Below the pieces are notes generated by a model that saw only the letters and a list, made by a program, of their open reading frames with translations, was not told the DNA's origin and ran no database searches. From Spirochaetota bacterium (GTDB taxonomy: Bacteria > Spirochaetota > Brachyspiria > Brachyspirales > JACRPF01), in the NCBI GenBank assembly GCA_016214035.1, contig JACRPF010000021.1, positions 124,001-188,000 of the forward strand: a DNA stretch of 64,000 nucleotides, read 5' to 3'. A program made the translations under genes and the position numbers. Each line of letters opens with the position of its first letter. Positions within the stretch are counted from its first letter, which is position 1. This document shows, piece after piece, positions 13,602-42,760 of this stretch.

Positions 13602-13744
13602 GCGCGCGATTAGCGAAGGAGGGGATATCTTTTTCCTCGGCGTACGAGCGGCATGGATGCCGCGAGAGCGAGTGATGCATCAGGATGATGCACACCGAGC
13701 GTTACGTCGAGGAAAAAGATATCCCCTCCGAGCGATCGTAGCGC
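13602..13744. repeat. Three-way-junction intergenic element with two GGA-loop hairpins
   Basis: A perfect 22-bp stem (13618-13639 with 13708-13729) encloses two hairpins. One is GCGGCA-TGGA-TGCCGC (13648-13663). The other is TGCATCA-GGA-TGATGCA (13676-13692), extended by GTG/CAC. Partly paired GCGC..CGAT sequences extend the outer stem on both sides. Both loops expose GGA, as RsmA/CsrA-binding sRNAs do. It sits between a convergent-free pair of rightward genes, 60 bp after one stop and just before the next promoter. Confidence 0.65.
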
Positions 13745-24053: not shown

Positions 24054-24082
24054 TTGACAAAGTAACGCTTCTTGCGTATATT
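24054..24082 (+). promoter_or_regulatory. Promoter of the glycan-utilisation operon
   Basis: TTGACA (24054-24059), 17 nt, TATATT (24077-24082). The start site would fall inside the palindromic operator immediately downstream. Confidence 0.8.
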
Positions 24083-24083
24083 G

Positions 24084-24103
24084 AATGGCATACGTATGCC
24101 ATT
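24084..24103. promoter_or_regulatory. LacI-type operator O1, perfect 20-bp palindrome
   Basis: AATGGCATACGTATGCCATT, a perfect dyad with the central CG step usual for LacI-family operators. It overlaps the expected transcription start of the regulator gene and so implies autoregulation. A 16/20 match lies at 31094-31113. Confidence 0.8.
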
Positions 24104-24129
24104 ATTACCAAACGAGGCTGATAACCCGC

Positions 24130-25092: not shown

Positions 25093-28000
25093 AAACGATA
25101 ATACGTTCCTTCGTGTCGTCACTCATCATCATCACGGCGTGTTCGCTGATGCTCCCTGCCGCGGTGCTGTTTGAAGATACGTTCAACGCGCCATCGAGCG
25201 CGTGGCACGCGACGGCGGGAACATGGACGCCGGGTAACAGGGAGATCATATCAACCGGCGGCGGAAAATATGTAACCGGATCGGCGAAGTGGAAAAACTA
25301 CACGATTCGTATGCGTATATTCACCGAGAGCCCCGGAAAGGACACCTGGAATGTCGCGGGCATGCTTGTGCGCTATACCGATGAAAAAAACCACTATGCG
25401 GTTGTACTGCACACAACCGGCAAGATTGAGCTCGCGAAAATGCATAACGGCAAATGGCTCGATAATCGCGCGCATGCGCAGACGAAAAACGCAGCGGCAC
25501 AGTGGAGCGACCTGTCGGCGACGGTAACAGGCGGCACAATCACCGTAAGCGTTAACGGCGAAACGCTTATCACCTATACCGACCCCGAGCCGCTGCTCCG
25601 CGGCGGGATTGGACTTTTAAACAACGGTGCGAAGCAGGCGCGATTTGCCGCCGTCAATGTAACATCGGATGATGCCGCCGTAGTCCCGAAGAAAGCCGGA
25701 AGAACCACGGTGGGTATATTCACGAGAACATTATCCGGCGCAGCAGATGCTGAAACCGCACGTCTGTCAGCCGCATTCATCAAAGCGGGATATTCCGTAC
25801 TGCCGGTATCCGAAGACGATGCGGTCACCGAGGACATGGTATCAACGGATCGTTTTTTTCTGTACATCATTCCCGGCGCACAGCAGTATCCGGCGAACGG
25901 ATGTGCGGGTATAACGGAATTCATTTCACAAAAGGGTTCGCTTATCGTGACCGGCGGAGAAGCGTTCACCAAACCGCTGTATAAACGGACTACTCCGGGC
26001 GGCGGCTGGATTGACCGCGCCGGATATGAAGTGATGCTCAACTCGCTGCAGGCGGAATCTGTTGCGGTCAATTTCGAGAATACAATCAACTGGTCGTTCT
26101 CAGGAAACGATGCGGCGGGTTCCGGCGCGTCTATGACAATCGCACCCGACGGTGTGAAAGGGAATTGCACCGCGTATGAAGTAAAAAACCTCACCGGCTG
26201 GGCGACATACTACTCCCCCGTCATGGGTCCTGCTTTCCCTGCGGATCATGACGTACTCTGTCTCTGGGCGAAAGGAGATGCGGCAACACCGTCGATACTC
26301 ATCGAGCTGAATGAAAAGGACGGATCGCGCTGGCTCTATACATTGAAAATATCGCCTGAATGGAAATCGTACGCGATACCGTTTGAAGACTTCGTCTATT
26401 GGCACGACTCGCCGACCAAAAATACGCGCGGCGGATCCGGCGATACGCTGAAACCGAATCAGGTAGTTAAATTCAATTTCGGCATGGCGCTCGGCAATCA
26501 GTCGCTCAAGCGCGGAGAGTATCGATTCCGGATCGATGAACTCGGCAGCGCGAAAAATCCGCTGGGGTCGATACGTGCAGATATAAAACGCAACACGCCG
26601 CCGATCATAGAGACGATATCACCGTCGTACAAGGTATTCCCTTTGAGCAATATAAAAACACTTGTGTTGGAACAATCGCAGCGGATCGTACCCGCATCGC
26701 TTAGAATAACTGCAGCCGAAGGCATGTACGCGCCGATACGACGGCCGACGGGCGCCGGATTCACCGGAGCGAACAAGTGGCGATTCATCCCGCTCATAAA
26801 CGCTTTCGATGCGAACAGAGAATACCGCGGCTCACCGCTCTCGCTCATCATCACCGTGGCGGGCGGCGGCATACCGTCGCTTGCGGGCTTCTGCGGCGTG
26901 ACTCCCGACGCATCGATGACATCCGCGCTGATAGCGGCAGCTGAAAGGATTGCAGACGGCGTATTCCTCATCGAGGCGGGAAGCACGCGGTTCTCATATT
27001 ATCCCGACGAACCGGTAGCACTCGGCGCGCGCATCATGAACGCAGGCGATGGCAATGCGGATGTTTTGCTTCGCATTACGGTGCGTGCCGACGGGAAGAC
27101 GGTATTTCAAAAAGAGGAAAAAGTGTCGATTGAAAAAGGAGCTGTGACGAATCAGGCGATCAGCACATCGGCAACACTGCCTGCCGGAACCACCGGCACG
27201 GTCAGGACTGAACTCGTACGCGGCGGCGAGGTCATCGATGTTATCGAGCATGAGATCGGCATACTCCCGGCACGGAACTATACTCCGGCAGCCGACGAAT
27301 TCGTCACCGTACGCGGCAGCGATTTCTACTGTAAAGGAAAAAGATGGTATCCGAACGGCATCAATTACTGGCCGCTCAATGTATCGGGCCTTGAACCGGA
27401 TGTCTACAACGCCGGATGGCTTACACCCGGATTTTATAATCCCGAAGAGATAGAACGGGATCTCACGCTCATGAACAAACTCGGCATCAACATGGTGAGC
27501 ATACAGATGCAACGCACCAATGCGGCGCGCAATCTCCTCGACTTTTTCCGCCGCTGCGAACGTCACGACATCAAAGTAAACGGCTTTCTTGACGGAGCAA
27601 GTCCCACCGATTTCGAGGAATGGCTCGAATCGTCAATCATTCGAGAGGCGAATCTCGCGAATCAGAAGGCGCTGTTCGCCTACGACATCATCTGGGAAGC
27701 GAGCAATCACGTCTTCAACATAAAGAAACGCACACGATGGAATAAACAGTGGAACGAGTGGATCAAGGAACGATACGGCAGCATTGAAAACGCAATCAAA
27801 GACTGGAACCATTCGCCGGAGACAATACCCGAAGGCATAACGCAGCCGAAGCAGGAAGAGCTCATGAACGACGGCGCATGGCGTATCTACGTCGCCGCAT
27901 ACCGGCGCTTCATGGACGACTTCACCAGCCGCATCTGGAACGATGCGCACCGCAGAATAAAAAAGTACGACAGCAATCACCTCATCAGCTTCCGGCAGGG

Positions 28001-29021
28001 GAACACGACGTATTTCGATTTCGCATTCACGAGCCCGATGAAGCACATCGCGTTCGTCGAGCCGGAAGGTTACGGGTACCCTCATGACGACGAAACCTAT
28101 TATACGCTCGGATTTTCAACGCGTTATGTGCAGTTCACGTCGGGCGGCAAACCCGTGTACTGGTCGGAATTCGGAAAAAGCGTCTGGAACAGAGCGACGA
28201 TGCGTCCCGACGAGGCGCTTCAGAAGGTACAGGATGATTACAACGAAAAATACTACCGTATGCTGATGGACACGGGCGCGAACGGTCTCGCCCCCTGGTG
28301 GTGGCCGGGCGGATACCGCGTCAACGAGAAAAGCGATTTCGGCATCATGAACCCCGACGGTACGCCGCGGAAAACGGCGCTCATCGCTCAGGAATATGCG
28401 AAACGCATTACGTCGGATCGGACGGTACCGGCACCGGACGTATGGTTCGAATTCGACCGCGAGGCGCATGCCGGCGGTTACTGGCGCGCGGTGTTCAACG
28501 AAGGACGAGATGCATTCCGTGACGCCTGCATAAAAGGAAAAAACCTCGGAATAAAAACACCCGGCACCGGTACGGATTCGGCGAACACCCCCCTTGTCTC
28601 CGTGGGAAATACGACATATAATGGCAGTAATCCGCCGAAGTATCTGGACGCCGAGTTCAATTACCTCGCGGTGAAGATCGGCGATACGTGGACGAATATC
28701 TACGGGAGCGGCGGGTCTATCGCCCTTCCCGCGGGAAAACCGGTTACGGTGAAACTCTCGATCGGCAATATCGGCGAAGCCGTCTGGCTGTCGCCGAAAG
28801 CGGTGCCGGGTACGGGAGGCGTCTATGTGTCGACAAGAAGCGGCGATGCGGAGTTCCGGGAACCCATTATCGCGGACACGCCGCGGCTTGCTGATGCCGA
28901 GACCGGTTCTTTTACGCTGGTGCCGTCACTGCGTTCTTCCGCGCGTGTTGTGTTTGAAATGACCGCGCGCGACCGCATGTGGTTCGGCGAAAAATGGGAG
29001 ATAACGTTCGTTGCACACTAA
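25089..29021 (+). CDS. Secreted multidomain clan GH-A glycoside hydrolase
   Basis: 1310 residues. A signal peptide is followed by a concanavalin-like/LamG-type module (about 27-195: FEDTFNAPSSAWHATAGTWT). A glutamine-amidotransferase-like Rossmann module (about 205-300, TVGIFTRTLSG ... GSLIVTGG) comes next, then a CBM-like beta-sandwich (about 325-500), an Ig-like region (about 640-735) and a TIM-barrel hydrolase (about 743-1100). The barrel has the usual GH-A pair: acid/base candidate Glu870 (DIIWEAS) and nucleophile candidate Glu1027 (VYWSEFGKS). The family is near GH5/GH42/GH2 but not assignable by eye. A C-terminal beta domain (1150-1310) ends it. It is the first structural gene of the LacI operon and probably cleaves or trims an external polysaccharide. 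Confidence 0.8.
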   Translation: MKTIIRSFVSSLIIITACSLMLPAAVLFEDTFNAPSSAWHATAGTWTPGNREIISTGGGKYVTGSAKWKNYTIRMRIFTESPGKDTWNVAGMLVRYTDEKNHYAVVLHTTGKIELAKMHNGKWLDNRAHAQTKNAAAQWSDLSATVTGGTITVSVNGETLITYTDPEPLLRGGIGLLNNGAKQARFAAVNVTSDDAAVVPKKAGRTTVGIFTRTLSGAADAETARLSAAFIKAGYSVLPVSEDDAVTEDMVSTDRFFLYIIPGAQQYPANGCAGITEFISQKGSLIVTGGEAFTKPLYKRTTPGGGWIDRAGYEVMLNSLQAESVAVNFENTINWSFSGNDAAGSGASMTIAPDGVKGNCTAYEVKNLTGWATYYSPVMGPAFPADHDVLCLWAKGDAATPSILIELNEKDGSRWLYTLKISPEWKSYAIPFEDFVYWHDSPTKNTRGGSGDTLKPNQVVKFNFGMALGNQSLKRGEYRFRIDELGSAKNPLGSIRADIKRNTPPIIETISPSYKVFPLSNIKTLVLEQSQRIVPASLRITAAEGMYAPIRRPTGAGFTGANKWRFIPLINAFDANREYRGSPLSLIITVAGGGIPSLAGFCGVTPDASMTSALIAAAERIADGVFLIEAGSTRFSYYPDEPVALGARIMNAGDGNADVLLRITVRADGKTVFQKEEKVSIEKGAVTNQAISTSATLPAGTTGTVRTELVRGGEVIDVIEHEIGILPARNYTPAADEFVTVRGSDFYCKGKRWYPNGINYWPLNVSGLEPDVYNAGWLTPGFYNPEEIERDLTLMNKLGINMVSIQMQRTNAARNLLDFFRRCERHDIKVNGFLDGASPTDFEEWLESSIIREANLANQKALFAYDIIWEASNHVFNIKKRTRWNKQWNEWIKERYGSIENAIKDWNHSPETIPEGITQPKQEELMNDGAWRIYVAAYRRFMDDFTSRIWNDAHRRIKKYDSNHLISFRQGNTTYFDFAFTSPMKHIAFVEPEGYGYPHDDETYYTLGFSTRYVQFTSGGKPVYWSEFGKSVWNRATMRPDEALQKVQDDYNEKYYRMLMDTGANGLAPWWWPGGYRVNEKSDFGIMNPDGTPRKTALIAQEYAKRITSDRTVPAPDVWFEFDREAHAGGYWRAVFNEGRDAFRDACIKGKNLGIKTPGTGTDSANTPLVSVGNTTYNGSNPPKYLDAEFNYLAVKIGDTWTNIYGSGGSIALPAGKPVTVKLSIGNIGEAVWLSPKAVPGTGGVYVSTRSGDAEFREPIIADTPRLADAETGSFTLVPSLRSSARVVFEMTARDRMWFGEKWEITFVAH

Positions 29022-29051
29022 TTGATATCGATACGCAAGAGGAGTCAGAGG

Positions 29052-31055
29052 ATGCTAAGCAAGTTCATCGCGAAGGTCAAGGAATATCTGGGAATCATCA
29101 TCATCGGCGGGGCGTTCGTCACCGCGACGATAATCGTCTTCACCGCACAGCGGGGGAGCGAGGAGACGGTGCATATCGTTACCGCGGGTGAAACACTCGC
29201 CAAGATCGCCGATACCTATGAGACGACGGTTGAAAAGATATGTGAAGAGAACTATCCGGATATCTCCGAAAAGTATGTCCTTGAAGCCGGCACAAAAATA
29301 AAAATACCGAAGAACAGAAGCCGGAAGATCATCACGATACGGCTCGCGCACTGGCAGCTTGAGCCGGGCGTACGCGACGGCATCAACTTCATGGCGAAAG
29401 AATATCAGAAACTGCACCCGAATGTACGCGTGGTACAGAACGCGGTGCCGGAAACGACATACGGGCAGTGGTTCGTCACCCAGATGGTCGGCGGAACCCC
29501 CGCGGACCTCATGGAGATCGGCAAGGTCCCCTATTCGCTCCTGGTCACCTACTACATGCGCTATTTCACGCCGCTCACCGAATATGTCACACAGCCCAAT
29601 CCGTACAACGCGAACAATGAATTCGCCGGCATTCCGCTCCGTGACACCACCAAGGACGGTCTGAAAAACTGCTATATCCCCGAAGTGCAGGAATATATGG
29701 GCATCGGACTCTCGCAGTTCCTGGTGCGCATGTACTACAATAAAACCCTCCTTAAGCAGCTCGCCGGATATGACCGTGCCCCGAAGGATTGGCGCGAATT
29801 TCTCGACGTCTGCGAAAAGATCAGCAAACACAAGTTCATCAACCGCGTAACGCGGAAAACGCTTGATGAATGCGATCAGGGTATTCGGGAGTGCCGTGAA
29901 CGTCTGCAGCGCGGCGGCAGCGATGCGGCAATGGCGCAGGTGAATGCCAAGATGAAAGAAATCATCGCGAAAACGAACGCGCTCATGGCGACGATACCCT
30001 ATTATGTACCGGTGGCAAATTCCGGTGTACAAATGGGCCAGGTTGAGCATAACATGTTCAACGTGGTTACATCGAGGGGACGCGACCTCATCGACTTCAA
30101 CCATGACTGTTCGGTAAGCACCACGGAGACATATATCGGATTCAAGACGAAAAAAGTGAGTCTCGACTTCCCGCCCTATCGCGCAAAGTTCGCGCTCGTC
30201 TCCAATTTCTGCAGCTACTGCATTCCCGGATTCACCGGCCTCACGCGCGACGACGGCGTTCTCCTCTTCGTCCAGCAGCGCGGCATATTCATCTCAACCG
30301 GAACCTGGGATGCACAGATGCTGGAAGAGCAGGCAAAAGACAACGGGTTTGAAGTGGCCGTGATGGAATTCCCGATCCCGTCCAAGGATGATCCCGATTT
30401 CGGCAGATTCATGGAAGGTCCGGCGTACGAGGACCCCGCGACCGGTTTCATGTTCGGCTGCCCCACTCCTGAAAACGAACCGGAGAAACGCAAAGCTGCG
30501 ATCGATTTTCTTCTGTTCCTGACCGGCAAAGAAAACAACATAAAGCTCAACCAGATGATCGGCTGGATACCCTGTGTCTCGGGTGCTGAAGGCGCAGGCA
30601 TTCTCAAGCAGTTCAAGGCGCATTCCGAAGGCGTAACGCCGGCGCTTAACTTCGGCATCGGCGGCGAATCCATCATCAAATGGTCGCAGATGTATGCGCT
30701 CTATCAGGTTGGACAGATCTCGTTCGAAAAGATGCGCGACGAGTTCACACCCTATTACATTGAACGCGGTTATAACGATTATCTCACTGCCACGAAGAAT
30801 TGGCGGCGGAGCATGCTCACCGACGAGAAGATGATGTCGATGCTGCGCGCCCGCGCGTTCACCTCAACAAACGACAGGCAGAACAGCGAATACTGGACAA
30901 AATACCGCTACGTGATGCTTCGCCCGCTGACACGCGAAGTTGACGTAAGTTTTGAACAAAACCTCATGAAGCGGTCACAGCAGAAGGACTTCATGCCGCC
31001 GAATGCATATGAATATTCAGCAGAAGCGCTGCAGCGTATAAAAAACCGCCGATAA
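29052..31055 (+). CDS. Membrane-anchored LysM plus ABC-type solute-binding protein
   Basis: 667 residues from ATG 29052, preceded by GGAG; an earlier TTG (29022) is unlikely. One transmembrane segment (about 12-33, LGIIIIGGAFVTATIIVFTA) is followed by a LysM domain (about 40-88: VHIVTAGETLAKIADTYETT ... LEAGTKIKIP), a known peptidoglycan or chitin-oligomer binder. A family-1 type extracellular solute-binding domain follows (about 95-560: KEYQKLHPNVRVV, WFVTQMVGGTPADLMEIG, SKDDPDFGRF, AAIDFLLFLTGKE). Ordinary ABC sugar-binding proteins are free or lipid-anchored and have no LysM. No ABC permease or ATPase gene is in the window, so it either works with permeases elsewhere or is a sensor/surface binder. 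Confidence 0.85.
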   Translation: MLSKFIAKVKEYLGIIIIGGAFVTATIIVFTAQRGSEETVHIVTAGETLAKIADTYETTVEKICEENYPDISEKYVLEAGTKIKIPKNRSRKIITIRLAHWQLEPGVRDGINFMAKEYQKLHPNVRVVQNAVPETTYGQWFVTQMVGGTPADLMEIGKVPYSLLVTYYMRYFTPLTEYVTQPNPYNANNEFAGIPLRDTTKDGLKNCYIPEVQEYMGIGLSQFLVRMYYNKTLLKQLAGYDRAPKDWREFLDVCEKISKHKFINRVTRKTLDECDQGIRECRERLQRGGSDAAMAQVNAKMKEIIAKTNALMATIPYYVPVANSGVQMGQVEHNMFNVVTSRGRDLIDFNHDCSVSTTETYIGFKTKKVSLDFPPYRAKFALVSNFCSYCIPGFTGLTRDDGVLLFVQQRGIFISTGTWDAQMLEEQAKDNGFEVAVMEFPIPSKDDPDFGRFMEGPAYEDPATGFMFGCPTPENEPEKRKAAIDFLLFLTGKENNIKLNQMIGWIPCVSGAEGAGILKQFKAHSEGVTPALNFGIGGESIIKWSQMYALYQVGQISFEKMRDEFTPYYIERGYNDYLTATKNWRRSMLTDEKMMSMLRARAFTSTNDRQNSEYWTKYRYVMLRPLTREVDVSFEQNLMKRSQQKDFMPPNAYEYSAEALQRIKNRR

Positions 31056-31093
31056 CCGGAGCGAACCGATGCCGCAGATGAAAAGCAGCAGCA

Positions 31094-31113
31094 AATGGCA
31101 TTCGTATAGCATA
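31094..31113. promoter_or_regulatory. Second LacI-type operator candidate (O2)
   Basis: AATGGCATTCGTATAGCATA matches O1 at 16 of 20 positions, including the left half-site AATGGCAT and the central CGTAT. It lies in the 104-bp gap before the GH99/71-like gene, the longest gap inside the operon, so an internal LacI-controlled promoter or a looping site is plausible. Confidence 0.5.
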
Positions 31114-31159
31114 TCGCGGGACTTATCACTCTCCCATAATAATATCGGAGGATAAACGC

Positions 31160-33511
31160 ATGAGACATCTATATCTGATAGCACTGGCAGCAGGTATTCT
31201 TTCCATCGCTTCCGCGGATGATTTTACCGGCGCGCGCGTGTCCGTATCTCCTGCCGAAAAACAGATATCGCACGGCATTGTCTGGCAGAAGGAAAACAAG
31301 GAATCCGTATATGAAACGGTTACGCGTGATGGAAAAACGGCGATACGCGAAAAGAAGATGATGTATTTCGCGGTCACCGATGAACGGTTCAAAAAAGGAG
31401 CACTGCCGCTTCTGAGGATTGATATCGCGTATTTCGACGAGGGTAAAGGCGTTATCGTAATGAAATATGATTCATCCGACGCCTCGATAAATCCCGGCCC
31501 GAATGCCGGCGTATGGAAAGGTAAAAAAGCGCTGACACTTACCGACACACGTACATGGACGAATGCATCGATATTCATCAGCGACGCATATTTTGCCGGC
31601 CGCTGCAACGGCGGCGACTTCCGGTTCGAATGTAAAACGCCGCTCATCATCTCCGCGGTCACCATCACCGCCGCAGACGACGCGTCGCAGGAGAAAGCCC
31701 GCATGAGGACGAACAACGCCGCACCCGCTGTAGAGCAGTTCACGCTCACGTATGACGAAGTCGTCGCCAAGCTCGCGTTCTATGTCGGCATCGCGAAGGA
31801 AAACACCGCCGCATCGACGCTCACCGGGTCGGTCATGTGCGGCTATCAGGGATGGCACGGCGCCCCCGGCGACGGCTCGGGCCGCGGCTGGGTGCATTAC
31901 CAGGAGCACATCACCTTCGAACCCGGTGACTGCCATGTTGACTACTGGCCCGATGTGCGCGGTTTCGACGCGGACGAAAAATATGCCACACCGTTCAAGC
32001 ACCGTGACGGAAGTACCGCTTATGTGTTCAGCGCAATGAACAGAAAGACCGTGGACCGTCACTTCGCGTGGATGGAGGACAATGGCATCGACGGCGCGTT
32101 CGTCCAGCGTTTTGCGTCGGTCGTAAAAAATCCCGCGACACTGTACAAAAACAACACCGTTCTCATGAACGTACGCGCCGCTGCAAACGCTCGTGGACGA
32201 AGCTACGCCGTGATGTACGATCTTTCCGGTGCGAAAGACACGGATATACTGATCAACGACTGGAAAATACTGGTCAGCAAGATGGGCATCGGCAAGGACC
32301 CGAACGACAAGGCGTACCAAAGACATAACGGCAGGCCTGTTGTCGCGCTCTGGGGTCTCTTCGCCGACAGGGAATACAGCATAGCTACCTTTGAACGTCT
32401 CGTCGATTTCATGAAAAACGATCCCGTCCACGGCGGATTCTCGATAAAGCTCGGCGTCAATAACAATTGGCGTACGGGTACCGGAGCGAATGCGGATCGC
32501 GTTCGAAAGATCATCGCGCAGGGCGACATCGTCTCTCCGTGGACCGTCGGGCGTTATTCCTCCATCGACCAGGCGGAATTGTTCTATGCATTCAATAATA
32601 AACCCGATCAGGATTGGTGCCGCGCGAACGGCAAAGACTACATGCCCGTCATTTTCCCCGGATTCAGCTGGTATAACATGCACGACGGCGCTACACCGCT
32701 CGGCGCGATACCGCGTCTGCAGGGACGCTTCTTCTGGAAACAGATCACGCTGGCAAAAGAAGCGGGCGCGAGCATGCTCTATGTAGCCATGTTCGATGAG
32801 ATCGATGAAGGAACCGCTATTTACAAGGTGGACAACGATCCGCCCGTATGCGACGGAACGGTGACCAAATTCCTCGATTACGAAGGACTTCCCAACGACC
32901 AGTATCTCTGGCTTTCGGGTATGGCAAAAAAGCTGCTCGCCAACGGCATTCCGCCGACCGCACTCCCGCCCGCGCGAAAGGGTGTATCGATCAGCTATAA
33001 ACCGCTAGACGCAAACGGACTTGCACCGGGACTCAATGAAATATCCGTCATACTTGAAAAACAGCAGATTAGCAGAGGCATCATCATGCAGGAACGGGGG
33101 ATTGAAACGCTCAACATCCCGGTGACGAGGAACGGCCGCAGCGGTTGGATGAGCAAAGCACTCGGCGATAAAGACGGCGGACGCAAGGTATATCTGAAGA
33201 TCGATTATTCGGAATTCCGGGGAAAAACGGTGCCGCCGCTGACGCTCGAGATCGATTATTTCGACGACTGCGCCGCCACAGTACGCGTGGTGTACGACTC
33301 GCGGGATTTCTCATACAACCCCGGAACAGCGAATCCCGGAGCATGGAAAGAGGCAGGGAGTTTTCAGACGGGAACCGGCGGCGCATGGAAAACGGCCGCC
33401 ATCACGGTATCGGACCCGCTTTTCGCCGGACGATGCAACGGCAATGACATTCGTCTTGAATTCGGCGCCGGCGCTGATCTTGTCATCGGCGCAGTACGCC
33501 TGAAAAAGTAA
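31160..33511 (+). CDS. Secreted GH99/71-like protein flanked by two YFDEG-GRCNG domains
   Basis: 783 residues; ATG 31160 with GGAGG upstream and a signal peptide to about residue 20. Residues 24-170 and about 630-783 are two copies of the recurring domain (YFDEG at 91-95, GRCNG at 147-151; second copy YFDDC at 700). Between them is a TIM-barrel region of the GH99/71-like type. It starts at GSVMCGYQGWHGAPGDGSGR and carries FDEIDEGTA (Glu547, Glu550), which matches the EWHEGT-type pair of GH99 endo-alpha-mannosidases/mannanases. The inferred role is endo-cleavage of an alpha-mannosidic polysaccharide, with the flanking domains as binding modules. GH71 (alpha-1,3-glucanase) cannot be excluded. 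Confidence 0.8.
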   Translation: MRHLYLIALAAGILSIASADDFTGARVSVSPAEKQISHGIVWQKENKESVYETVTRDGKTAIREKKMMYFAVTDERFKKGALPLLRIDIAYFDEGKGVIVMKYDSSDASINPGPNAGVWKGKKALTLTDTRTWTNASIFISDAYFAGRCNGGDFRFECKTPLIISAVTITAADDASQEKARMRTNNAAPAVEQFTLTYDEVVAKLAFYVGIAKENTAASTLTGSVMCGYQGWHGAPGDGSGRGWVHYQEHITFEPGDCHVDYWPDVRGFDADEKYATPFKHRDGSTAYVFSAMNRKTVDRHFAWMEDNGIDGAFVQRFASVVKNPATLYKNNTVLMNVRAAANARGRSYAVMYDLSGAKDTDILINDWKILVSKMGIGKDPNDKAYQRHNGRPVVALWGLFADREYSIATFERLVDFMKNDPVHGGFSIKLGVNNNWRTGTGANADRVRKIIAQGDIVSPWTVGRYSSIDQAELFYAFNNKPDQDWCRANGKDYMPVIFPGFSWYNMHDGATPLGAIPRLQGRFFWKQITLAKEAGASMLYVAMFDEIDEGTAIYKVDNDPPVCDGTVTKFLDYEGLPNDQYLWLSGMAKKLLANGIPPTALPPARKGVSISYKPLDANGLAPGLNEISVILEKQQISRGIIMQERGIETLNIPVTRNGRSGWMSKALGDKDGGRKVYLKIDYSEFRGKTVPPLTLEIDYFDDCAATVRVVYDSRDFSYNPGTANPGAWKEAGSFQTGTGGAWKTAAITVSDPLFAGRCNGNDIRLEFGAGADLVIGAVRLKK

Positions 33512-33538
33512 CACCGCTTACGGCAGTAAGGAGACATT

Positions 33539-36500
33539 GTGCTTATCAACCCGCAGACACTTCAGAAGATTGAAAAGATTGAGAACCGCTACCGCGCGCT
33601 CAGGTTTGAAAAACACCTGTCACTCGACGCAAAATACTGGGACACGAAAGAACATCTGCGTGCAGATCCGAAGGGTGTTGCCTGGAAACCGATTACACGC
33701 GGCAGTGACTGGGGCGGGGACTGGCTCACGCGCTGGTTCAAATCCGGCTTCACGACGCCGTCGTCGCTTGCGGGAAAGAAAGTGTTCATTCAGGCTAGAA
33801 CCGGCGCGCCGGAAACGCTGGTCATCGTCAACGGCGAACATAAGGGCGTTTTTGACGGAAAGCCTTTCAACACCGGCACGGTGAACCATACCGCTGTATG
33901 CATCGCACTCAAAGCGGTGAAAGGCCGTCGATACTCCATCGCACTTGAAGCGTACAGCGGGCACACATTCCCCGGCACCCAGCCTGACGAAACGGCGCGC
34001 GCGGTGAACGCGCACTCAAACCGCTACGACGGCATCGATATCGTCACCGAACGTGAAGATGTGAGCGCGTTCTTCTACGACCTTCTGGTGCTCCGCCAGA
34101 GTATGGAAGCGCTCAATGACGACAGTGTCCGCAGGCATGACATAGCGAAAACGCTCGAACAGGTTTTTATCACCGTCGAATCCATGCCGGCAGAGGTAGA
34201 TGAAACTGCGTGGCGTACATCGATGAAAAAAGCGCATGCGCTGCTCAAACCGATGCTGAAAGCCGGGAACACGGACAATCTGCCGCATATGGGACTCATC
34301 GGGCACAGCCACCTCGACACCGCGTGGCTGTGGACTGTCGCAGAAACTACGCGGAAATGCGCCCGGACATTTTCATCGGTGCTCAATCTCATGGAACAGT
34401 ATCCGGAATTCATTTTCCTGCAGAGCGCTCCGTATCACGCGGACGTCACAAGGCGGGAATACCCGGCGATATTTGAGAAAATAAAAGCCCGCGTGAAGGA
34501 AGGCCGGTGGGAGCCAAACGGCGCCATGTGGGTGGAGCCCGACTGCAATGTCCCGTCAGGCGAAGCGTTCGTGCGGCAGCTCATCTACGGCCAGGAGTTC
34601 ACCCGCAGGCATTTCGGCTACACCGCCGACACGCTGTGGCTGCCCGATGTCTTCGGTTATTCCGGCGCACTTCCGCAGATTCTCATGAAAGCGGGCGTGA
34701 AGTATTTCTGCACGACGAAGATGGCGTGGGGTGAGGTGAAATTCCCGTACGATACGTTCCGCTGGGAAGGCATCGACGGGACGCATATCGTCTCCCATCT
34801 GCACAAGATACATTTCATCCCGGACCCGAAAACTCTCGCCGGTTTCTGGCACGGCGTTCAGCACAAGGAAACGCAGAACGGCGTGCTCTGCCCGTTCGGT
34901 TACGGCGACGGCGGCGGCGGCCCTCATTCCGACATGATTGAGATTGCACGACGTGTAAAAAAAGTCGACGGCCTTTTCACGTCGGCATATACCACGGTCA
35001 CCGGTTTCATGAAACGTATTGCACAGCGCATGACCGAACTTCCTTCGTGGTCGGGCGAGCTTTATCTCTCGGCGCATCGCGGCACACTCACCTCGATTGC
35101 GAAAACAAAACGCCTGAACCGCAAAGCTGAATTCGCCCTGCGTGACGCGGAATATTTCTCAACGCTTGCCGCACTCGGCGGTACAGCGTACCCGAAACAG
35201 CTCCTTGAAGACCTCTGGAAAACGCTGCTCGTCAATCAGTTCCATGACATACTGCCGGGTTCATCGATTGCCGAGGTGAACGACCTGGCGGATAAAGAGC
35301 TGTCGGCGGTGGTGCAAAAGGCGGAAGCGCTGACACAGCGCATGATCGCTGCGGCGACAAAACCGTCGCATCAGAATCAGGAAAGCATATCGCTCATCAA
35401 TACGCTTGGATGGCAGCGTTCGGGAACACACGCCGTTCCTGCACTGCTGAAAGGAAAAACGCCCGCAGGGGTGACGTCGCAGCATTTCACGGGACTTGAC
35501 GGCACACAAATGAACTTTATCGCCGGCGCTGCGCTTCCTTCCTTCGGCACTGTTGTTCTCCCGCTTGAAAAAGCTGCCGAAAAAACCGGTTCGGCACGTC
35601 CGTTCAGCATATCGAAAACCGCCATCGAAACACCGATGTTGAACATGCGCATCGACACCAGCGGGAGGATAGTCTCCTGCATCGACAGGAAATACGGACG
35701 TGAGATTGTACGTACCGGCGGTGCGCTCAACCGTTTCCTCATCTCGGAAGACGTGCCGACGGCATGGGACAATTGGGATATCAACGAGGACCATCTGCTC
35801 AAAGAGCATGAGGACATGCGCCTTGTCTCACGCGAGGTCATTACCAACGGTCCGCTCGCGCTCATGCTGCGCAGCGAATACAAGATCGGCAAGCGTTCAC
35901 GCATCATACAGGACATGACGCTGTTCGCCGATTCGCCGCGCATCGAATTCACAACGAAGATAGACTGGCATGAAAAGCACACGTTCCTCAAAGCCGGTTT
36001 TGACGTCGATATCCTCTCCGATACGGCACGATATGAGATACAATACGGACACCTTGAACGCACGCGACACAAGAATCTCAAGGAAGACCGGATGAAATTC
36101 GAGGCACTCGTCCATAAATGGATGGATGTGAGCGAAACGAATTTCGGTGTGGCGCTTTTGAACGACGGCAAGTACGGCGCATACGCGGGACGCGAACGCA
36201 TGACGCTGTCGCTCATGAAATCGGGAACACATCCCGACGCGCGCGGCGATGAGGGTTCGCATTCCGTCACCTATGCGATTCTGCCGCACGGCGCATTCAA
36301 TGCCGACGTTGTCCGTGAAGCGTATGCATTGAACGTCCCGGTCATCGCGATTGCCGGCAGTGCGTCATACCGCCGCCCATTCCTCACCATCGACGCGCCG
36401 AACGTCATCATCGAAAGCGTAAAATGGGCCGAACACGAAAAAGCATTCGTCGTCCGCCTGTATGAAACTGAGCGTTCCGGCACAACCGCGGAACTTACGT

Positions 36501-36634
36501 TCGGCGTACCGGTACTATCGGTTGCCGAGACGGATCTGCTTGAAGAACATCCGTCACCATGTACACTATCCGATAATCGTATCCGATTTTACATCAAGCC
36601 GTTTGAGATAAAAACATTTGTATGCCGCATATAA
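33539..36634 (+). CDS. GH38 alpha-mannosidase
   Basis: 1031 residues, normal for the family; GTG 33539 with GGAG upstream. The class II alpha-mannosidase core is clear: zinc ligands in GHSHLDTAWLW (His258, Asp260), nucleophile Asp370 in WLPDVFGYSGALPQ, GDGGGGPHSDM, and HDILPGSSI. It releases mannose from non-reducing ends of alpha-mannosides. It has no signal peptide, unlike the neighbours on both sides. So it probably acts in the cytoplasm on imported oligosaccharides, the last step of the pathway. It is 27 bp after the GH99/71-like gene and 17 bp before the esterase gene. Confidence 0.93.
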   Translation: MLINPQTLQKIEKIENRYRALRFEKHLSLDAKYWDTKEHLRADPKGVAWKPITRGSDWGGDWLTRWFKSGFTTPSSLAGKKVFIQARTGAPETLVIVNGEHKGVFDGKPFNTGTVNHTAVCIALKAVKGRRYSIALEAYSGHTFPGTQPDETARAVNAHSNRYDGIDIVTEREDVSAFFYDLLVLRQSMEALNDDSVRRHDIAKTLEQVFITVESMPAEVDETAWRTSMKKAHALLKPMLKAGNTDNLPHMGLIGHSHLDTAWLWTVAETTRKCARTFSSVLNLMEQYPEFIFLQSAPYHADVTRREYPAIFEKIKARVKEGRWEPNGAMWVEPDCNVPSGEAFVRQLIYGQEFTRRHFGYTADTLWLPDVFGYSGALPQILMKAGVKYFCTTKMAWGEVKFPYDTFRWEGIDGTHIVSHLHKIHFIPDPKTLAGFWHGVQHKETQNGVLCPFGYGDGGGGPHSDMIEIARRVKKVDGLFTSAYTTVTGFMKRIAQRMTELPSWSGELYLSAHRGTLTSIAKTKRLNRKAEFALRDAEYFSTLAALGGTAYPKQLLEDLWKTLLVNQFHDILPGSSIAEVNDLADKELSAVVQKAEALTQRMIAAATKPSHQNQESISLINTLGWQRSGTHAVPALLKGKTPAGVTSQHFTGLDGTQMNFIAGAALPSFGTVVLPLEKAAEKTGSARPFSISKTAIETPMLNMRIDTSGRIVSCIDRKYGREIVRTGGALNRFLISEDVPTAWDNWDINEDHLLKEHEDMRLVSREVITNGPLALMLRSEYKIGKRSRIIQDMTLFADSPRIEFTTKIDWHEKHTFLKAGFDVDILSDTARYEIQYGHLERTRHKNLKEDRMKFEALVHKWMDVSETNFGVALLNDGKYGAYAGRERMTLSLMKSGTHPDARGDEGSHSVTYAILPHGAFNADVVREAYALNVPVIAIAGSASYRRPFLTIDAPNVIIESVKWAEHEKAFVVRLYETERSGTTAELTFGVPVLSVAETDLLEEHPSPCTLSDNRIRFYIKPFEIKTFVCRI

Positions 36635-36651
36635 CGCGATGGAGTGATGTC

Positions 36652-38052
36652 ATGTGTTTTTCAAGATCGATCGTTTTTTTCATGCTCAGCGCAGTCTCGT
36701 TCGCAGCGACGGTAACACTCTCGTCCCCGCCGACCGAGAATGGACTGAAAGCGGCGCCGAAAACGCCCGAAGGCGTCATGGAACCTGCTGATGTAGACGG
36801 AAAACCGGCATGGCGTTGTCTGCCCGGAACATCCGCCGGCAAGTTCTGCTATGTAACCGTTACTGACACCGCCATGAAGAACGGAGCGGCGCCGTCGGTG
36901 AAGTTTTCCATCACGTATTATGACGAGGGCTCAGGTGAACTTGCTGTCGAGTATGATTCGCTCGATGCGGCGAAGATACCCGGCGCGTTCAAACACATTC
37001 ACCTGGCCGCACTCGGCGACAGTAAAACATGGAAGACCGCTGATGTCACCATAGGCGATGCGCGTTTCGGCGGACGATGCAACGGCAATGACTTCCGCAT
37101 TTACATGCCGAAGGATGTAAACATCGCGTTCAGTTCGATATCCGTTACGGCTATTACCATATCACCGGAGGAAAAGCTTGCAGCCATGAAAAAGCTTGGA
37201 GAAGATAAAAAGGAAAAGCAGCGCCAGTTCATCGCACAGCTTCCCGCAGGAAGCACGGGCCTGTTCGACGAGCCGTATGTCCCGAATCCCAAAAACAGTC
37301 CGGTTCCCGGCTCGCAGCAGAACCTCGATCTCTTCGTCCCGCCGGGCGACGGCCCGCATCCGCTCGTGATCTACATACACGGCGGCGGCTGGCACAGCGG
37401 CGCAAAAGGCATCGGCATGGCCCCGCCGTACGTCGCGGCAGGACTCGCGTTCGCAACGCTCAATTACCGGCTCACCGTGGACGCGCCGTTCCCCGCGCAG
37501 ATAGAGGACTGCATTGCGGCACTCGGCTGGCTCCGCGCCAATGCCGGACGTCTGCATCTCGACAGGAACAGGATCGGCGTCTCGGGTCATTCGGCGGGAG
37601 CGCATCTCGCGGCACTCCTTGCAGTCACGGGCGGTGACAGTGTGTTCAAAACCGGCGCGGGCAATTTTCCTCCGGTACAGGCCGCGGCACTGATGTCAGG
37701 TCCGTTCGATCTGGGACGTGAACGCGGCAACTGGCCGAAAACGATGTTCGCCTGGAATCCGAATGACAAATTCTGTAAAACGTTCTTCACCAACGGCAGC
37801 TACGAGGAACCGTTCGCGCAATGGGCAAGTCCCTCATCATACGTCCGCGGTGGACTTCCGCCGATGCTCATCATCCACGGCGGAAAAGATACCACGGTGC
37901 CGCTTGAACAGGCGCGCACGTTCGCTGATGCGTTGACGCAGGCGGGAAATCAGGTTACATTCAGAATAGCGCCGGAAGCGGGACACAGCCTGCCTGCGGA
38001 TGCAAATTCTGAATCCTTGCAGTTCTTTAAAGAAAAACTTTTTACCAAGTAA
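36652..38052 (+). CDS. Secreted alpha/beta-hydrolase esterase with N-terminal YFDEG-GRCNG domain
   Basis: 466 residues from ATG 36652 (GGAG upstream); the frame reaches back to 36622 without a ribosome site. After a signal peptide (to about 18), residues 20-168 are one copy of the recurring domain (YYDEG 89-93, GGRCNG 140-145). A short Lys/Glu linker leads to an esterase of the BD-FAE/acetyl-esterase type. It has oxyanion motif HGGGW (243-247), nucleophile Ser314 in GHSAG, Asp413 (GGKDTTVP) and His445 (EAGHSL). It probably removes acetyl or other acyl groups from the polysaccharide so the mannosidases can act. Confidence 0.87.
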   Translation: MCFSRSIVFFMLSAVSFAATVTLSSPPTENGLKAAPKTPEGVMEPADVDGKPAWRCLPGTSAGKFCYVTVTDTAMKNGAAPSVKFSITYYDEGSGELAVEYDSLDAAKIPGAFKHIHLAALGDSKTWKTADVTIGDARFGGRCNGNDFRIYMPKDVNIAFSSISVTAITISPEEKLAAMKKLGEDKKEKQRQFIAQLPAGSTGLFDEPYVPNPKNSPVPGSQQNLDLFVPPGDGPHPLVIYIHGGGWHSGAKGIGMAPPYVAAGLAFATLNYRLTVDAPFPAQIEDCIAALGWLRANAGRLHLDRNRIGVSGHSAGAHLAALLAVTGGDSVFKTGAGNFPPVQAAALMSGPFDLGRERGNWPKTMFAWNPNDKFCKTFFTNGSYEEPFAQWASPSSYVRGGLPPMLIIHGGKDTTVPLEQARTFADALTQAGNQVTFRIAPEAGHSLPADANSESLQFFKEKLFTK

Positions 38053-38070
38053 TGATCGAAGGAGATCCCG

Positions 38071-41000
38071 ATGCATGTACGTATCATCATGGCGGTGCTT
38101 CTTATGACCGCGTTCCTCTCTGCCGCGCCGAAATCCGCAATCATGACCTCACCTGCCGAATCAAAAGGCCTGTCGCTTACGCTTGAGACTGACGAAGGGA
38201 AAAATTCGGTGGTCACCAGAGCGGACCGCGAGGGCTGGCTCTGCAGTCCGGGTTCCGCAAAAGGGAAATATATGTATTTCAAGGTGACTGACGATTCCTG
38301 CAGGAACGGGGCGTCGCCGTCGGTGCAGCTCACCGTCGAATACTTCGACGAAGGAACGGGTGAGATGCGCATCGAATACGATTCGCTTGATGAGGCGAAA
38401 CTGCCGGGTGCGTTCAAACCGGAAACGATTGCGACATGCGCGAACACAAAAACATGGAAGACTGCAAAAATCGGCATCAAGGACGCCCGTTTCGGTGGAC
38501 GCTGCAACGGCAGTGACTTCCGCATATCACTTTCCGCAGCGGCGGCATGTGTACTCGCATCAGTCTCCATCGCCTCCTGGAAAGACCCCAACGATATTCC
38601 CGCACCGCCGGTAAAGTGGCGCGTAGTCAGCACCAAATATCCGACCGCGGATGTCGTCATCGCCGGATACAGCGTCCGTGAGTTCGGCGCGGCAGGAGAC
38701 GGTACGGGTGACGATACCGCGGCATTTCAGGCGGCGATGAATGCAATGGCGAAACAGGGCGGCGGCACCGTATTCGTTCCATCGGGCAGATATGCGATAC
38801 GGGGAAATCTTATTATACCGACAAGCGTTACGCTTCGCGGAGAGTGGATGAAACCGGTTACGGGACGTTCCGTCGACGGCAGCATTATTATGGCGTATGC
38901 CGACCGCGGAATGAGTAACGGCACTCCGTTTATACTGCTCAAACAGTCATCGGGAATAAAGGACCTGACGATATGGTATCCCGAACAGGATGCAGGATCG
39001 ATAGTACCGTATCCGTATACTCTCAGACAGGACGGCGGCGACAACGCAACGTTTGAAAACCTTACGCTCGTGAACGTATATCAGGGCATCGTCATCGGCC
39101 CCAACGGCAATGAGCTTCACTATATCAAAAACGTATACGCCACGTTTCTGTCCACCGGCATTCAGTTCGACCGCACCACGGACATCGGACGGCTTGAGAA
39201 CATCTTCATCAACCCCGACATCTGGAGCGACTCGGGGCTTCCCGGTGCACCGGCAAAGAACGGCCCGCATGCGTCATGGGTCTACGACAACGGCACGGCG
39301 ATACGCATGTACCGGAGCGACTGGGAATACGGCGCATACGTCTACATCCGTGGTTATAAAACAGGTTTCGAGATACTCACCTCGCCGCAGGGCTCGCCCA
39401 ACGCACAGTTTTATGAGTTCGTCATTACGAATTGCCGTACCGCATTGTCGGTCATCGACGCGAATTCGATAGGACTTTCGTTCACCGCCTGTACCTTCGC
39501 CGGCGACGATACCGGCGTATCGCTTTCACCGTCGTTCACCGCGATAGCGCTCTTCCATACATCGGTGATACGCGGAAAGACTGCGGCACAGCTTGACGGT
39601 AAGGGCAACTCCGCCGCTCTCTTTCAGCACTGCACATTTGAAGGTCCGGTATTACGCACCGCCGGCAACGCATCGTTTCTCGGCTGTGTCTTCAATTCCC
39701 CTAAGGATCAACTGACACTCGGTGCGGACGTGAACGCGGTCACCATTGCCGGATGCACATTCAAAGGCGGCAAACGGATCGTCAACAAAAGCGATTCACC
39801 GCTCATCTCGATACGCGATGAGTCCGTACCGCCGACAAAAATACCGCATCTGCCCTACCCCGGCGAGAAATCGCTGAAGCCGCCGAAAGCGGACCTCTAT
39901 GTAGTCACCGACGACACCTGGGGTGCAAAGAAAGACGGCAGCACCGATGACACCGCTGTAATACAGAACGCGCTCAACGCTGCTGCGAAAAACGGCGGCG
40001 GCATCGTGTTCCTGCCCGGCGGCAGTTATAACATAAAAGGACAGCTCACCGTGCCCTCCGCTGTTGAACTGCGCGGCGTATACGATGTCCCGCATCACAC
40101 ACTCGGCAAGGGAAGTACGCTCCGTATTTACAGCGGCCGCGGCGATGAATCCGCTCCGCCGGCCATCGTCATGGCTCCGGGAAGCGGCATGCGCGGCATG
40201 ACGTTCATGTATCCCGAACTGCAGTGCAGCGCTATAACGCCGTATCCGTTCATGATACAGGGGCAGGGCGCGAATATCTATATCATTAATATCGCGGCAC
40301 TCAACCCGTACAAGATGCTCGATTTCACGACATACCGCTGCGACAGCCATTATCTCGATTACGTCTCCGGGTCGCCGATGAAAGCGGGCATTGCCGTCGG
40401 CGGCGGCTCGAAAAACGGCGAAGTCCGTAACGCGCAGTTCAATCCGCATTACTGGAACCGCTCGCCGTATCCGGATTGTCCCGGCGGCATCGGCGGCTTC
40501 AAAGGCAATGCCGTCTGGGATTATCAGAAAGAGAACTTTGACGCGTTCATCTTCGGTGACTGCGAGAATGAACTGCAGTTCCAGAACTTTGTTTTCGGAT
40601 CGCTCTATGGCCTCCATTTTGTGCTTGAGAACGGCAAAGGCGCGTCGGGAATCGTGCTCGGCCATGGAACCGACGGCTCAAAAATTTCAGCCGCATTCGA
40701 CGGACTCGGCAAAGCGGGCATGGACTTTATCAACGCCGAACTCGTCTGCATGTCCACCACGGATAGAAAATACATCCTCTTCGGTGAGCAGTTCAAATCC
40801 GAAGCGCGTTTCTACAACACACTGCTCTGGGCTCAGCCGGAGTATTCTGCCGTCGTGCACGGAGGATCGCTCGTGTTCGAACTCGCCAATTTCCTGCACT
40901 ACGCAACGTTCCTCGTCGACGGCGGCACGCTCACACTCATCAACAGCTACCTCAACAATAACACCACCGGCGCGAAAGAGATTACCGTGAAAAACGCGTC

Positions 41001-41610
41001 ATCGCCGGTATCGCTCATCGGCAACATCACGACCTACGGCATGCGCACGGACGGCGCTGCGGCATCGCAGGTGCGTGCAGAGTTCAATACACAGCGCAAC
41101 GTACCCATACCCGACGACACGAAGGAATTATCGGTTTCACTCGGCAAACGCCAGAAGAAATTCGGCATATCGGTGCGAGAAAAGGATGGCGAATCGGAAA
41201 ACGTTGCCGCGGAAAAAGCGGGACGGGGCGGATGGATGAGCATCAAGCAGCCGTCACACGCACCGGGAACCTATTTCATGTACTGCACCGTTGAATTCCC
41301 CGGATTCAAAAACGGCGGCGCACCGAACGCTGTTATCGCCGTGGATTATTTCGACGAAGGTACCGGCGAATTCCGTATCGCCTATGACTCAAGCGATGAA
41401 TCGGTCAAGGTAGTAGCCAAAACCCCGGGGGCATGGAAAGAAGCGGGTACATTGAGAATGACCGATACCAAAACATGGAAAACACTTGAGTTCGCCGTGA
41501 ACGACGCGAAGTTTTCCGGACGCTGCAACGGCGCGGACTTGCGCTTTGAGATAAAATCCGGTACTATAAAACCGGTCGTCGGCGCGGTCAGGATCATAAA
41601 ACGTGATTAA
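38071..41610 (+). CDS. Secreted protein with two pectate-lyase-fold domains between two YFDEG-GRCNG domains
   Basis: 1179 residues; ATG 38071 with AAGGAG. Signal peptide to about 19. Residues 25-170 are a type-II copy of the recurring domain (YFDEG 91-95, GRCNG 143-147) and about 1035-1179 a type-I copy. Between them are two right-handed beta-helix domains of the Pectate_lyase_3/GH55-like superfamily. Each opens with the typical sequence: VREFGAAGDGTGDDTAAFQ (about 201) and WGAKKDGSTDDTAVIQNAL (about 620), followed by GGGTVFVPSGRY-like motifs. These folds include lyases, polygalacturonases and exo-beta-1,3-glucanases; the activity here is open. The gene is 19 bp after the esterase and 27 bp before the next gene. 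Confidence 0.8.
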   Translation: MHVRIIMAVLLMTAFLSAAPKSAIMTSPAESKGLSLTLETDEGKNSVVTRADREGWLCSPGSAKGKYMYFKVTDDSCRNGASPSVQLTVEYFDEGTGEMRIEYDSLDEAKLPGAFKPETIATCANTKTWKTAKIGIKDARFGGRCNGSDFRISLSAAAACVLASVSIASWKDPNDIPAPPVKWRVVSTKYPTADVVIAGYSVREFGAAGDGTGDDTAAFQAAMNAMAKQGGGTVFVPSGRYAIRGNLIIPTSVTLRGEWMKPVTGRSVDGSIIMAYADRGMSNGTPFILLKQSSGIKDLTIWYPEQDAGSIVPYPYTLRQDGGDNATFENLTLVNVYQGIVIGPNGNELHYIKNVYATFLSTGIQFDRTTDIGRLENIFINPDIWSDSGLPGAPAKNGPHASWVYDNGTAIRMYRSDWEYGAYVYIRGYKTGFEILTSPQGSPNAQFYEFVITNCRTALSVIDANSIGLSFTACTFAGDDTGVSLSPSFTAIALFHTSVIRGKTAAQLDGKGNSAALFQHCTFEGPVLRTAGNASFLGCVFNSPKDQLTLGADVNAVTIAGCTFKGGKRIVNKSDSPLISIRDESVPPTKIPHLPYPGEKSLKPPKADLYVVTDDTWGAKKDGSTDDTAVIQNALNAAAKNGGGIVFLPGGSYNIKGQLTVPSAVELRGVYDVPHHTLGKGSTLRIYSGRGDESAPPAIVMAPGSGMRGMTFMYPELQCSAITPYPFMIQGQGANIYIINIAALNPYKMLDFTTYRCDSHYLDYVSGSPMKAGIAVGGGSKNGEVRNAQFNPHYWNRSPYPDCPGGIGGFKGNAVWDYQKENFDAFIFGDCENELQFQNFVFGSLYGLHFVLENGKGASGIVLGHGTDGSKISAAFDGLGKAGMDFINAELVCMSTTDRKYILFGEQFKSEARFYNTLLWAQPEYSAVVHGGSLVFELANFLHYATFLVDGGTLTLINSYLNNNTTGAKEITVKNASSPVSLIGNITTYGMRTDGAAASQVRAEFNTQRNVPIPDDTKELSVSLGKRQKKFGISVREKDGESENVAAEKAGRGGWMSIKQPSHAPGTYFMYCTVEFPGFKNGGAPNAVIAVDYFDEGTGEFRIAYDSSDESVKVVAKTPGAWKEAGTLRMTDTKTWKTLEFAVNDAKFSGRCNGADLRFEIKSGTIKPVVGAVRIIKRD

Positions 41611-41636
41611 TATTTCATATCTGTACGGAGGATCAT

Positions 41637-42680
41637 ATGTGCAAGAAGATTACGATAGCGGCAGTATCCGTGCTGCTCGCGGCGGGATGGAGTTCAGCGT
41701 ACGCCGCGGTCAATGAGATCGGTATTGTACTCGGTACCGGAGGAAAAGGCAGCGGCATTACCTTCCGCGCGAAGGACGGAGAATCCGAGAATATTCCGGC
41801 CGAACGCGACGGACGCCAGTGCGTGCGGGGCATCAAACCCGCGCCGGGAACCGCGAATGTCTGGTACCTCTATTTTCTCGCCGACGACGCCGACTTCAGG
41901 GACGGCGCGGCGCCGAAGTCACGAATCACCGTGGAATACTTCGATGAAGGCACCGGTAAATTGCGCATCGCGTACGATTCATCCGATGAGAGCGTCACCG
42001 AAGTTAAGAACGCGCCCGGCTCATGGAAACGCCTTCCCGGCATAGAGCTTGAGAACAGTAAGCAGTGGAAGACCTATACCGTAACCGTATCCGACGCGCT
42101 CTTCAAAAAACGCTGCAACGGAGCCGATATCCGTCTGGAATTCTATGAAATGAATGCGGGGCCGTATATCTCAAAGTTGTCGATTAAAAAACCGTCGAAA
42201 CCGGCGACACCCGCGGGCGGCACACCCATCACTCTTACGTTGGCATCCACCCCGGTTGAAAAAGGTCTCAAACTTATCCCCGAGACACCTGAAGGAAAAA
42301 ACTCAGCGGTGACAAAGGACGGCAGAGAAGCCTGGGCATGCGCGCCGGGAACATCCGCCGGAAAGTATATGTATTTCCAGCTCACCGACGAGACCTTCCG
42401 CAACGGCAGCGCACCGTCGGTTGAAATCATATTCGAATACTTCGATGAAGGTGAAGGCGCAATTCATCTCGAATATGATTCCATGCTGGAAGCGAAAATA
42501 CCCGGCGGATTCAAGCCCGCCGCAATAGCCGCGCTTACCGGCTCAAAGACATGGAAGACGGCGCGGGTGAAGATCGCCGACGCCCGTTTCGGCGGACGCT
42601 GCAACAACTTCGACTTCAGAGTTGCCATACCGAAAAACACCGACGTAGCCGTCGCTTCGGTAGGTATCGCAAAAAAATAG
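41637..42680 (+). CDS. Secreted protein made only of two YFDEG-GRCNG domains
   Basis: 347 residues; ATG 41637 with GGAGG upstream; signal peptide to about 23. Residues 26-184 are a type-I copy (YFDEG 101-105, KRCNG 158-162) and 196-347 a type-II copy (EYFDEGEG, GGRCNN 319-324). A short Pro/Lys/Ala linker joins them. There is nothing else in the protein, so the domain is independently folding and the protein is likely a binding protein rather than an enzyme. It closes the operon, followed by a new promoter at 42733. Confidence 0.8.
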   Translation: MCKKITIAAVSVLLAAGWSSAYAAVNEIGIVLGTGGKGSGITFRAKDGESENIPAERDGRQCVRGIKPAPGTANVWYLYFLADDADFRDGAAPKSRITVEYFDEGTGKLRIAYDSSDESVTEVKNAPGSWKRLPGIELENSKQWKTYTVTVSDALFKKRCNGADIRLEFYEMNAGPYISKLSIKKPSKPATPAGGTPITLTLASTPVEKGLKLIPETPEGKNSAVTKDGREAWACAPGTSAGKYMYFQLTDETFRNGSAPSVEIIFEYFDEGEGAIHLEYDSMLEAKIPGGFKPAAIAALTGSKTWKTARVKIADARFGGRCNNFDFRVAIPKNTDVAVASVGIAKK

Positions 42681-42732: not shown

Positions 42733-42760
42733 TTGACAGAACCCCGCAAGATAGTATAAT
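42733..42760 (+). promoter_or_regulatory. Consensus promoter of the HD-GYP-panB pair
   Basis: TTGACA (42733-42738), 16 nt, TATAAT (42755-42760). Confidence 0.8.

Follow-up and report, generated by a model that had tools for sequence, protein, structure and literature searches.

A repeated beta-sandwich module of secreted Spirochaetota proteins as a candidate family of carbohydrate-binding accessory modules

What is the domain that recurs at the ends of otherwise different secreted proteins encoded together in a Spirochaetota genome, and what would it do there? We addressed this question for a 64,000-nucleotide stretch of a Spirochaetota bacterium (assembly GCA_016214035.1, contig JACRPF010000021.1, positions 124,001 to 188,000; hereafter the window), in which one module of about 150 residues occurs seven times in four proteins of an operon-like gene run: a GH99/71-like protein (GH, glycoside hydrolase), an esterase, a double beta-helix protein and a protein of 347 amino acids. 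Secretion of these proteins was judged by eye from their signal peptides. We propose, with a probability of roughly 0.7, that the module represents an undescribed family of accessory modules of the carbohydrate-binding module (CBM) type, each of which binds a polysaccharide and holds a secreted enzyme on its substrate; for now we would class it as a candidate new family within a known kind, that of CBM-like modules. Computation supports the existence of the repeat, its predicted fold, its transfer as one piece, its distribution and its association with carbohydrate-active domains in host proteins.

A profile built from the copies and BLAST between the four proteins (E values from 7.5e-15 to 1e-51) both recovered the seven copies where the first-pass annotation had placed them (window positions, with the profile E value of each):

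31226..31675, + strand: copy 1, N-terminus of the GH99/71-like protein (E 7e-62)
33029..33511, + strand: copy 2, C-terminus of the GH99/71-like protein, subtype B, the most divergent (E 4e-65)
36700..37155, + strand: copy 3, N-terminus of the BD-FAE-like esterase, subtype A (E 1.5e-65)
38125..38580, + strand: copy 4, N-terminus of the double beta-helix protein, subtype A (E 1.2e-67)
41116..41604, + strand: copy 5, C-terminus of the double beta-helix protein, subtype B (E 5e-68)
41706..42194, + strand: copy 6, first half of the 347-residue protein, subtype B (E 7e-66)
42216..42677, + strand: copy 7, second half of the 347-residue protein, subtype A (E 3.6e-66)

BLAST found no copy in the GH38, 1310-residue or solute-binding protein of the same run, the one match there (E 0.69) being at chance level. 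The copies differ strongly from one another (26–55% identity within the window) and fall into two main subtypes, A (copies 3, 4 and 7, mutually 44–55% identical) and B (copies 2, 5 and 6), with the N-terminal copy of the GH99-like protein outside both. The landmarks initially described as shared by all copies hold as a consensus and fail as strict motifs: YFDEG is exact in five of the seven (YYDEG in the esterase, YFDDC in the C-terminal GH99 copy), TWKT in four (TWTN, AWKT and QWKT in the others) and GRCNG in five (KRCNG and GRCNN in the others). Invariant in all seven copies are G, E, Y, P, Y.D, YDS, G..K, W and D..F..RCN..D.R.

None of the seven copies matched a Pfam or NCBIfam model, and 29 diverse members of the family, scanned singly, gave nothing credible in either library at E 0.5 or better. 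At that threshold, 0 of the 29 matched the CBM22/CBM4/CBM9 model PF02018 (CBM_4_9), and the Pfam families for CBM35, CBM6 and CBM36 were listed for none of them. Since Pfam detected CBM_4_9 at the opposite end of one module host protein (E 7.8e-8), the library is able to see such domains in this material. A profile of the 29 members, run against PDB chains, returned no plausible homologue and no CBM, CBM29 included, up to E 10; a CBM_4_9 query in the chain search also found no CBM chain. Two candidate matches were rejected as chance: a HIN-domain match of a narrower profile to a PDB chain (E 0.008), which disappears with the 29-member profile, and Pfam ParB_C matches (E 0.012–0.07), which cover about 20 residues. 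Literature searches for the module signature or for a fitting new CBM family found nothing suitable. The module is unnamed by the family databases searched (Pfam and NCBIfam), and the initial statement that no known family carries this signature is borne out for both libraries and, by sequence, for solved structures.

Structures were predicted separately for two copies, one per subtype, from ten-row alignments. Copy 7 (subtype A) gave a predicted local distance difference test score (pLDDT) of 86.7 and a predicted template-modelling score (pTM) of 0.82, and the divergent copy 2 (subtype B) gave 86.2 and 0.83; both models show the same complete beta-sandwich, nearly all beta and covering the whole repeat. 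These two models agree with the earlier expectation of a beta-sandwich, being a complete CBM-type sandwich and no fragment of a larger known domain. The top VIA-align rows for both include CBM22, CBM29, CBM35, CBM36 and CBM6 (Z 10–12, 4–19% identity), together with the MAM region of meprin and some further galactose-binding-like domains, and the Foldseek neighbours include CBM6 and the ligand-binding domains of Eph receptors. In fold score several CBM families are level, with none ahead of the rest; the module is predicted to be a complete beta-sandwich that is most CBM-like and clearly assignable to no CBM family. In the predicted strand order the YDSxD...PGxWK and DAxFxGRCNGxDFR loops, the two most conserved, would come to lie together at one end of the sandwich, which suggests a joint loop site.

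Whether the module moves independently of its hosts can be asked within the source genome itself. A profile search of that genome found an eighth copy on another contig (C3), before a GH42-like region (GH42 match E 3.6e-4, just under cut-off). By blastn, 489 bp without a gap (window 36710-37198) are 78% identical in DNA between the esterase copy and the contig C3 copy; the stretch starts directly after the signal peptide and stops in the following linker; downstream of it, blastn found no similarity between the two genes. As the shared stretch covers essentially the module alone, the module moved as a unit. The two copies are 76–77% identical as proteins, against 44–55% for the other subtype-A copies, and the nonsynonymous and synonymous divergences (dN 0.14, dS 0.82, dN/dS about 0.17) indicate purifying selection on the shared module. 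On these alignments, the clear recent module move is one between two loci of the source genome. Separately from the operon, a 130-bp stretch of the window (13604-13733) is 79% identical to another place on contig C3 (L098:6692-6821).

A Spirochaetota genome from a different family (G040) shows the longer history of the other copies. It encodes orthologues of the GH99-like protein (56% identity) and of the beta-helix protein (59%, same layout), and its beta-helix gene adjoins an orthologue (46%) of the window's 1310-residue protein. Each of the four modules on the GH99-like and beta-helix orthologues is closest, or nearly so, to the window copy in the same position, so this arrangement predates the split of the two lineages and those copies have undergone no visible reshuffling since. 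Divergence of the modules solely inside the operon is ruled out by the eighth copy and the G040 orthologues. The first-pass annotation had called the module independent and mobile within the locus. Its independence is upheld by standalone, tandem and both-end forms and by the 489-bp transplant, and mobility holds as a move between two loci of the genome, but the beta-helix and GH99 copies have kept their positions in G040.

Among 393 Spirochaetota genomes, convincing copies occur only in the source genome, G040 and G063. Single partial matches in two others (G252, E 6e-4; G342, E 8e-4), both in proteins of more than 3300 amino acids, were rejected as chance among so many genomes. This scarcity suggests transfer of the module from another phylum. 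Verrucomicrobiota were entered through a relative in a Verrucomicrobiia metagenome-assembled genome: a profile with a single Verrucomicrobiota row found the module in at least 26 of 388 genomes at E 0.001, with fewer than one expected by chance. With relatives added to the profile, the count rises to at least 35 of 388 genomes and nearly 80 places, and is partly circular because the profile was enriched from the same genomes; both counts are lower bounds, at most nine candidates per genome having been scored. Outside these phyla, three mutually divergent queries converged on one Pseudanabaena plasmid protein in an exopolysaccharide gene cluster, a GH-like protein (L070:3492-5318) with a C-terminal module, encoded with Wzy and glycosyltransferases. 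No module relative was found in viral contigs or phage records. The GH99-like protein itself (31160-33511) is 53% identical over 547 residues to a protein of a Verrucomicrobiia metagenome-assembled genome (L023:2864-4873), compared with 56% for the Spirochaetota orthologue, and a transfer of this gene between phyla is possible.

Nearly all host proteins examined contain a carbohydrate-active domain. By Pfam the hosts include sulfatases, SASA-type esterases, GH99/DUF5010, GH42, GH127, GH39 and GxGYxYP proteins, and the module stands N-terminally, C-terminally, in tandem (L068; three tandem copies in one protein) or alone (window 41637-42680; L066 5921-6481); one protein of 186 amino acids consists of a single copy and adjoins a larger host. 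The module has two general marks of a CBM: it is a discrete, non-catalytic module predicted to fold independently, and it occurs in carbohydrate-active proteins according to Pfam. The proposal that it is specific for this operon's glycan finds no support, given the eighth copy elsewhere in the genome, the many enzyme types in Verrucomicrobiota and the cyanobacterial exopolysaccharide locus.

Similarity between modules may nevertheless carry information on the locus. In G474 (L057:281-6532), genes for a sulfatase, a SASA esterase and a second sulfatase stand in a row, each product ending in a C-terminal module; the three modules are mutually 48–51% identical, whereas the SASA copy is at most 34% identical to modules on SASA esterases elsewhere. 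This repeats the picture of the window in another phylum and is as expected if modules within a locus share a ligand. In other pairs of hosts (two GH42, two DUF5010 and two GH99 proteins) the modules group by enzyme type, which plain descent would predict. A broader proposal, which we hold tentatively and at somewhat less than even odds, is that an undescribed CBM family of Verrucomicrobiota, a few Spirochaetota and at least one cyanobacterium is copied between enzyme genes and adopts the specificity of the locus, so that the module sequence, and not the enzyme type, would mark the polysaccharide.

We infer that the module binds glycan. Across the family, in which it spans about 130–165 residues, the ligand site would be the loop end of the predicted fold, where the YDSxD...G.[WF]K and DA.F.GRCNG.DFR loops meet. 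The module would keep secreted enzymes on their polysaccharide and could spread among the genes of one pathway because of a common ligand, and the 347-residue protein with its two modules would act as a free, non-catalytic glycan binder. Several points weigh against this reading. Similar beta-sandwiches serve protein–protein contacts, as the Eph-receptor domains listed by Foldseek illustrate; the positions conserved family-wide may be structural and reveal no ligand site; the gene cluster around one cyanobacterial copy is biosynthetic and not degradative; and the many host specificities make one common ligand unlikely.

The module could instead be a protein–protein or envelope-attachment domain, which docks the enzymes to each other or to the cell surface and binds no substrate. 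A shared dock would suit a module common to enzymes of differing specificity, the Eph-receptor domains among the best Foldseek matches are protein binders, and the two-module protein of the operon could be a scaffold. However, most of the solved structures nearest by VIA-align Z are CBMs, the window copies are only 26–55% identical where a common dock should tend to keep them alike, and no accompanying partner domain was noticed, although no systematic search for one was made; we consider such a dock unlikely. Rather improbable, but deserving slightly more weight, is that an already described CBM family (CBM22, CBM29, CBM35 or CBM6) includes the module as a far-diverged branch. CBM families drift far in sequence and the predicted fold is the same, at Z 10–12 over most of the domain; yet none of the 29 members matched a Pfam CBM at E 0.5 or better although CBM_4_9 was seen in one host, the PDB-chain search was free of CBMs up to E 10, and the tie in fold score favours no one family as the parent.

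Beta-sandwiches are commonly packed on glycoside hydrolase barrels, and the module could be such a structural part of each catalytic unit, stabilising it with no binding role. Retention of the modules by the GH99 and beta-helix orthologues is in keeping with this, but the module is also found alone, in tandem, and N- or C-terminal to unrelated folds; in the source genome it stands before two enzymes that are not related to each other, and the Verrucomicrobiia GH99 relative has no C-terminal copy. We regard a purely structural part as very improbable, and a glycan-binding CBM-type module remains our preferred reading.

Which polysaccharide would such a module meet in this genome? The four module proteins belong to a plus-strand run of eight genes (24085-42680) with overlaps of at most 13 bases and gaps of at most 104 bases, a spacing that suggests a single transcript:

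24085-25092, + strand: LacI-type regulator
25089..29021, + strand: 1310-residue GH-like protein, no module; weak Pfam GH72 match and N-terminal PF06439 domain
29022..31055, + strand: solute-binding protein with LysM domain, no module; Pfam SBP_bac_8, SBP_bac_1 and LysM
31160..33511, + strand: GH99/71-like protein, module at both ends; Pfam GH99 E 1.7e-5, below cut-off
33539..36634, + strand: GH38 protein, no module, no signal peptide; Pfam GH38 N, middle and C domains
36622..38052, + strand: secreted BD-FAE-like esterase, N-terminal module; Pfam BD-FAE E 4.5e-44
38071..41610, + strand: double pectate-lyase-type beta-helix protein, module at both ends; Pfam PF12708 in two stretches
41637..42680, + strand: 347-residue non-catalytic protein, signal peptide and two modules, from alignment

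The GH99-like protein scores 24.6 bits against the Pfam GH99 cut-off of 33, and bacterial endo-alpha-mannosidases of solved structure align with it at E 5e-5. The C-terminal part of its barrel contains an E..E motif: FDEIDEGT is matched in the alignment by FNEWHEGT of one such mannosidase. The glutamates of this motif are presumably the catalytic acids. Because the run combines GH38 with a GH99-like enzyme, the ligand of the operon would be alpha-mannan-like, but the GH99 match falls short of the Pfam cut-off, and the beta-helices and the esterase suggest that it is a decorated glycan.

Some features of the run stand apart from the module. The 1310-residue protein has a concanavalin-like domain at its N-terminus and otherwise weak family matches. 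The solute-binding protein (29022-31055) pairs an N-terminal hydrophobic stretch with LysM, an unusual combination, and no adjoining ATP-binding cassette permease gene was noticed in a Pfam scan of the window proteins. The beta-helix protein (38071-41610) carries two pectate-lyase/epimerase-type helices in tandem on a single chain, with one match to alginate C5-epimerases (E 2e-8) confined to the start of the first helix. In the 347-residue protein neither Pfam nor NCBIfam finds a domain above cut-off. Sites matching the sigma-70 consensus lie before the LacI-type gene (24054-24082, 11 of 12 positions) and before the HD-GYP gene that stands after the operon (42733-42760, 12 of 12), and would bracket one transcription unit; 2 bases separate the end of the former from the annotated LacI start, and the true start may therefore lie further downstream.

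The family would add to the binding modules of polysaccharide-degrading bacteria. Its hosts include proteins of Verrucomicrobiota, a phylum in which enzymes for sulfated and complex glycans are poorly annotated, and locus-wide module similarity could hint at the shared substrate of a gene cluster.

Among known systems, CBM112 (PMC13357471) is comparable as a CBM family lately described from a mannan-degrading enzyme, a Bacteroides GH26; in the available part of that source it binds beta-mannan and is set against CBM29 and CBM16, and Verrucomicrobia go unmentioned. The 347-residue protein would resemble SGBP-B-type surface glycan-binding proteins as a non-enzymatic secreted binder encoded with enzymes, and in one module relative a stretch of 26 residues weakly matches SGBP_B_XBD (E 5.7e-4, below cut-off); unlike that type, the 347-residue protein shows no lipoprotein signal, no SusC/SusD pair was found in its gene run, and its domains are others. 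CBM22, the xylan-binding modules of Clostridium thermocellum Xyn10B and Paenibacillus barcinonensis Xyn10C (PDB 2w5f, 2wys, 1dyo, 1h6x and 4xup), is close in predicted fold for both subtypes (Z 11.2–12.0, root-mean-square deviation (rmsd) 3.0–3.4, about 140 residues aligned) and likewise an accessory module of secreted enzymes that also occurs in tandem, but identity is 8–14%, none of the 29 members matches Pfam CBM_4_9, and the module hosts are not xylanases. CBM29 of Piromyces equi (PDB 1wcu, 1gwk and others), which itself binds beta-mannan and cellulose, gives subtype A its best fold match (Z 11.8, rmsd 2.9, 132 residues) and shares the tandem form; it differs in being fungal and only 5–13% identical, a comparison made through fold and PDB-chain search. 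CBM35, CBM36 and CBM6 differ in sequence (4–19% identity, no Pfam match) and share the predicted fold (Z 10–11 over 113–124 residues). The binding sites of these three families lie at the loop end, which offers a possible model for the conserved loops of the module.

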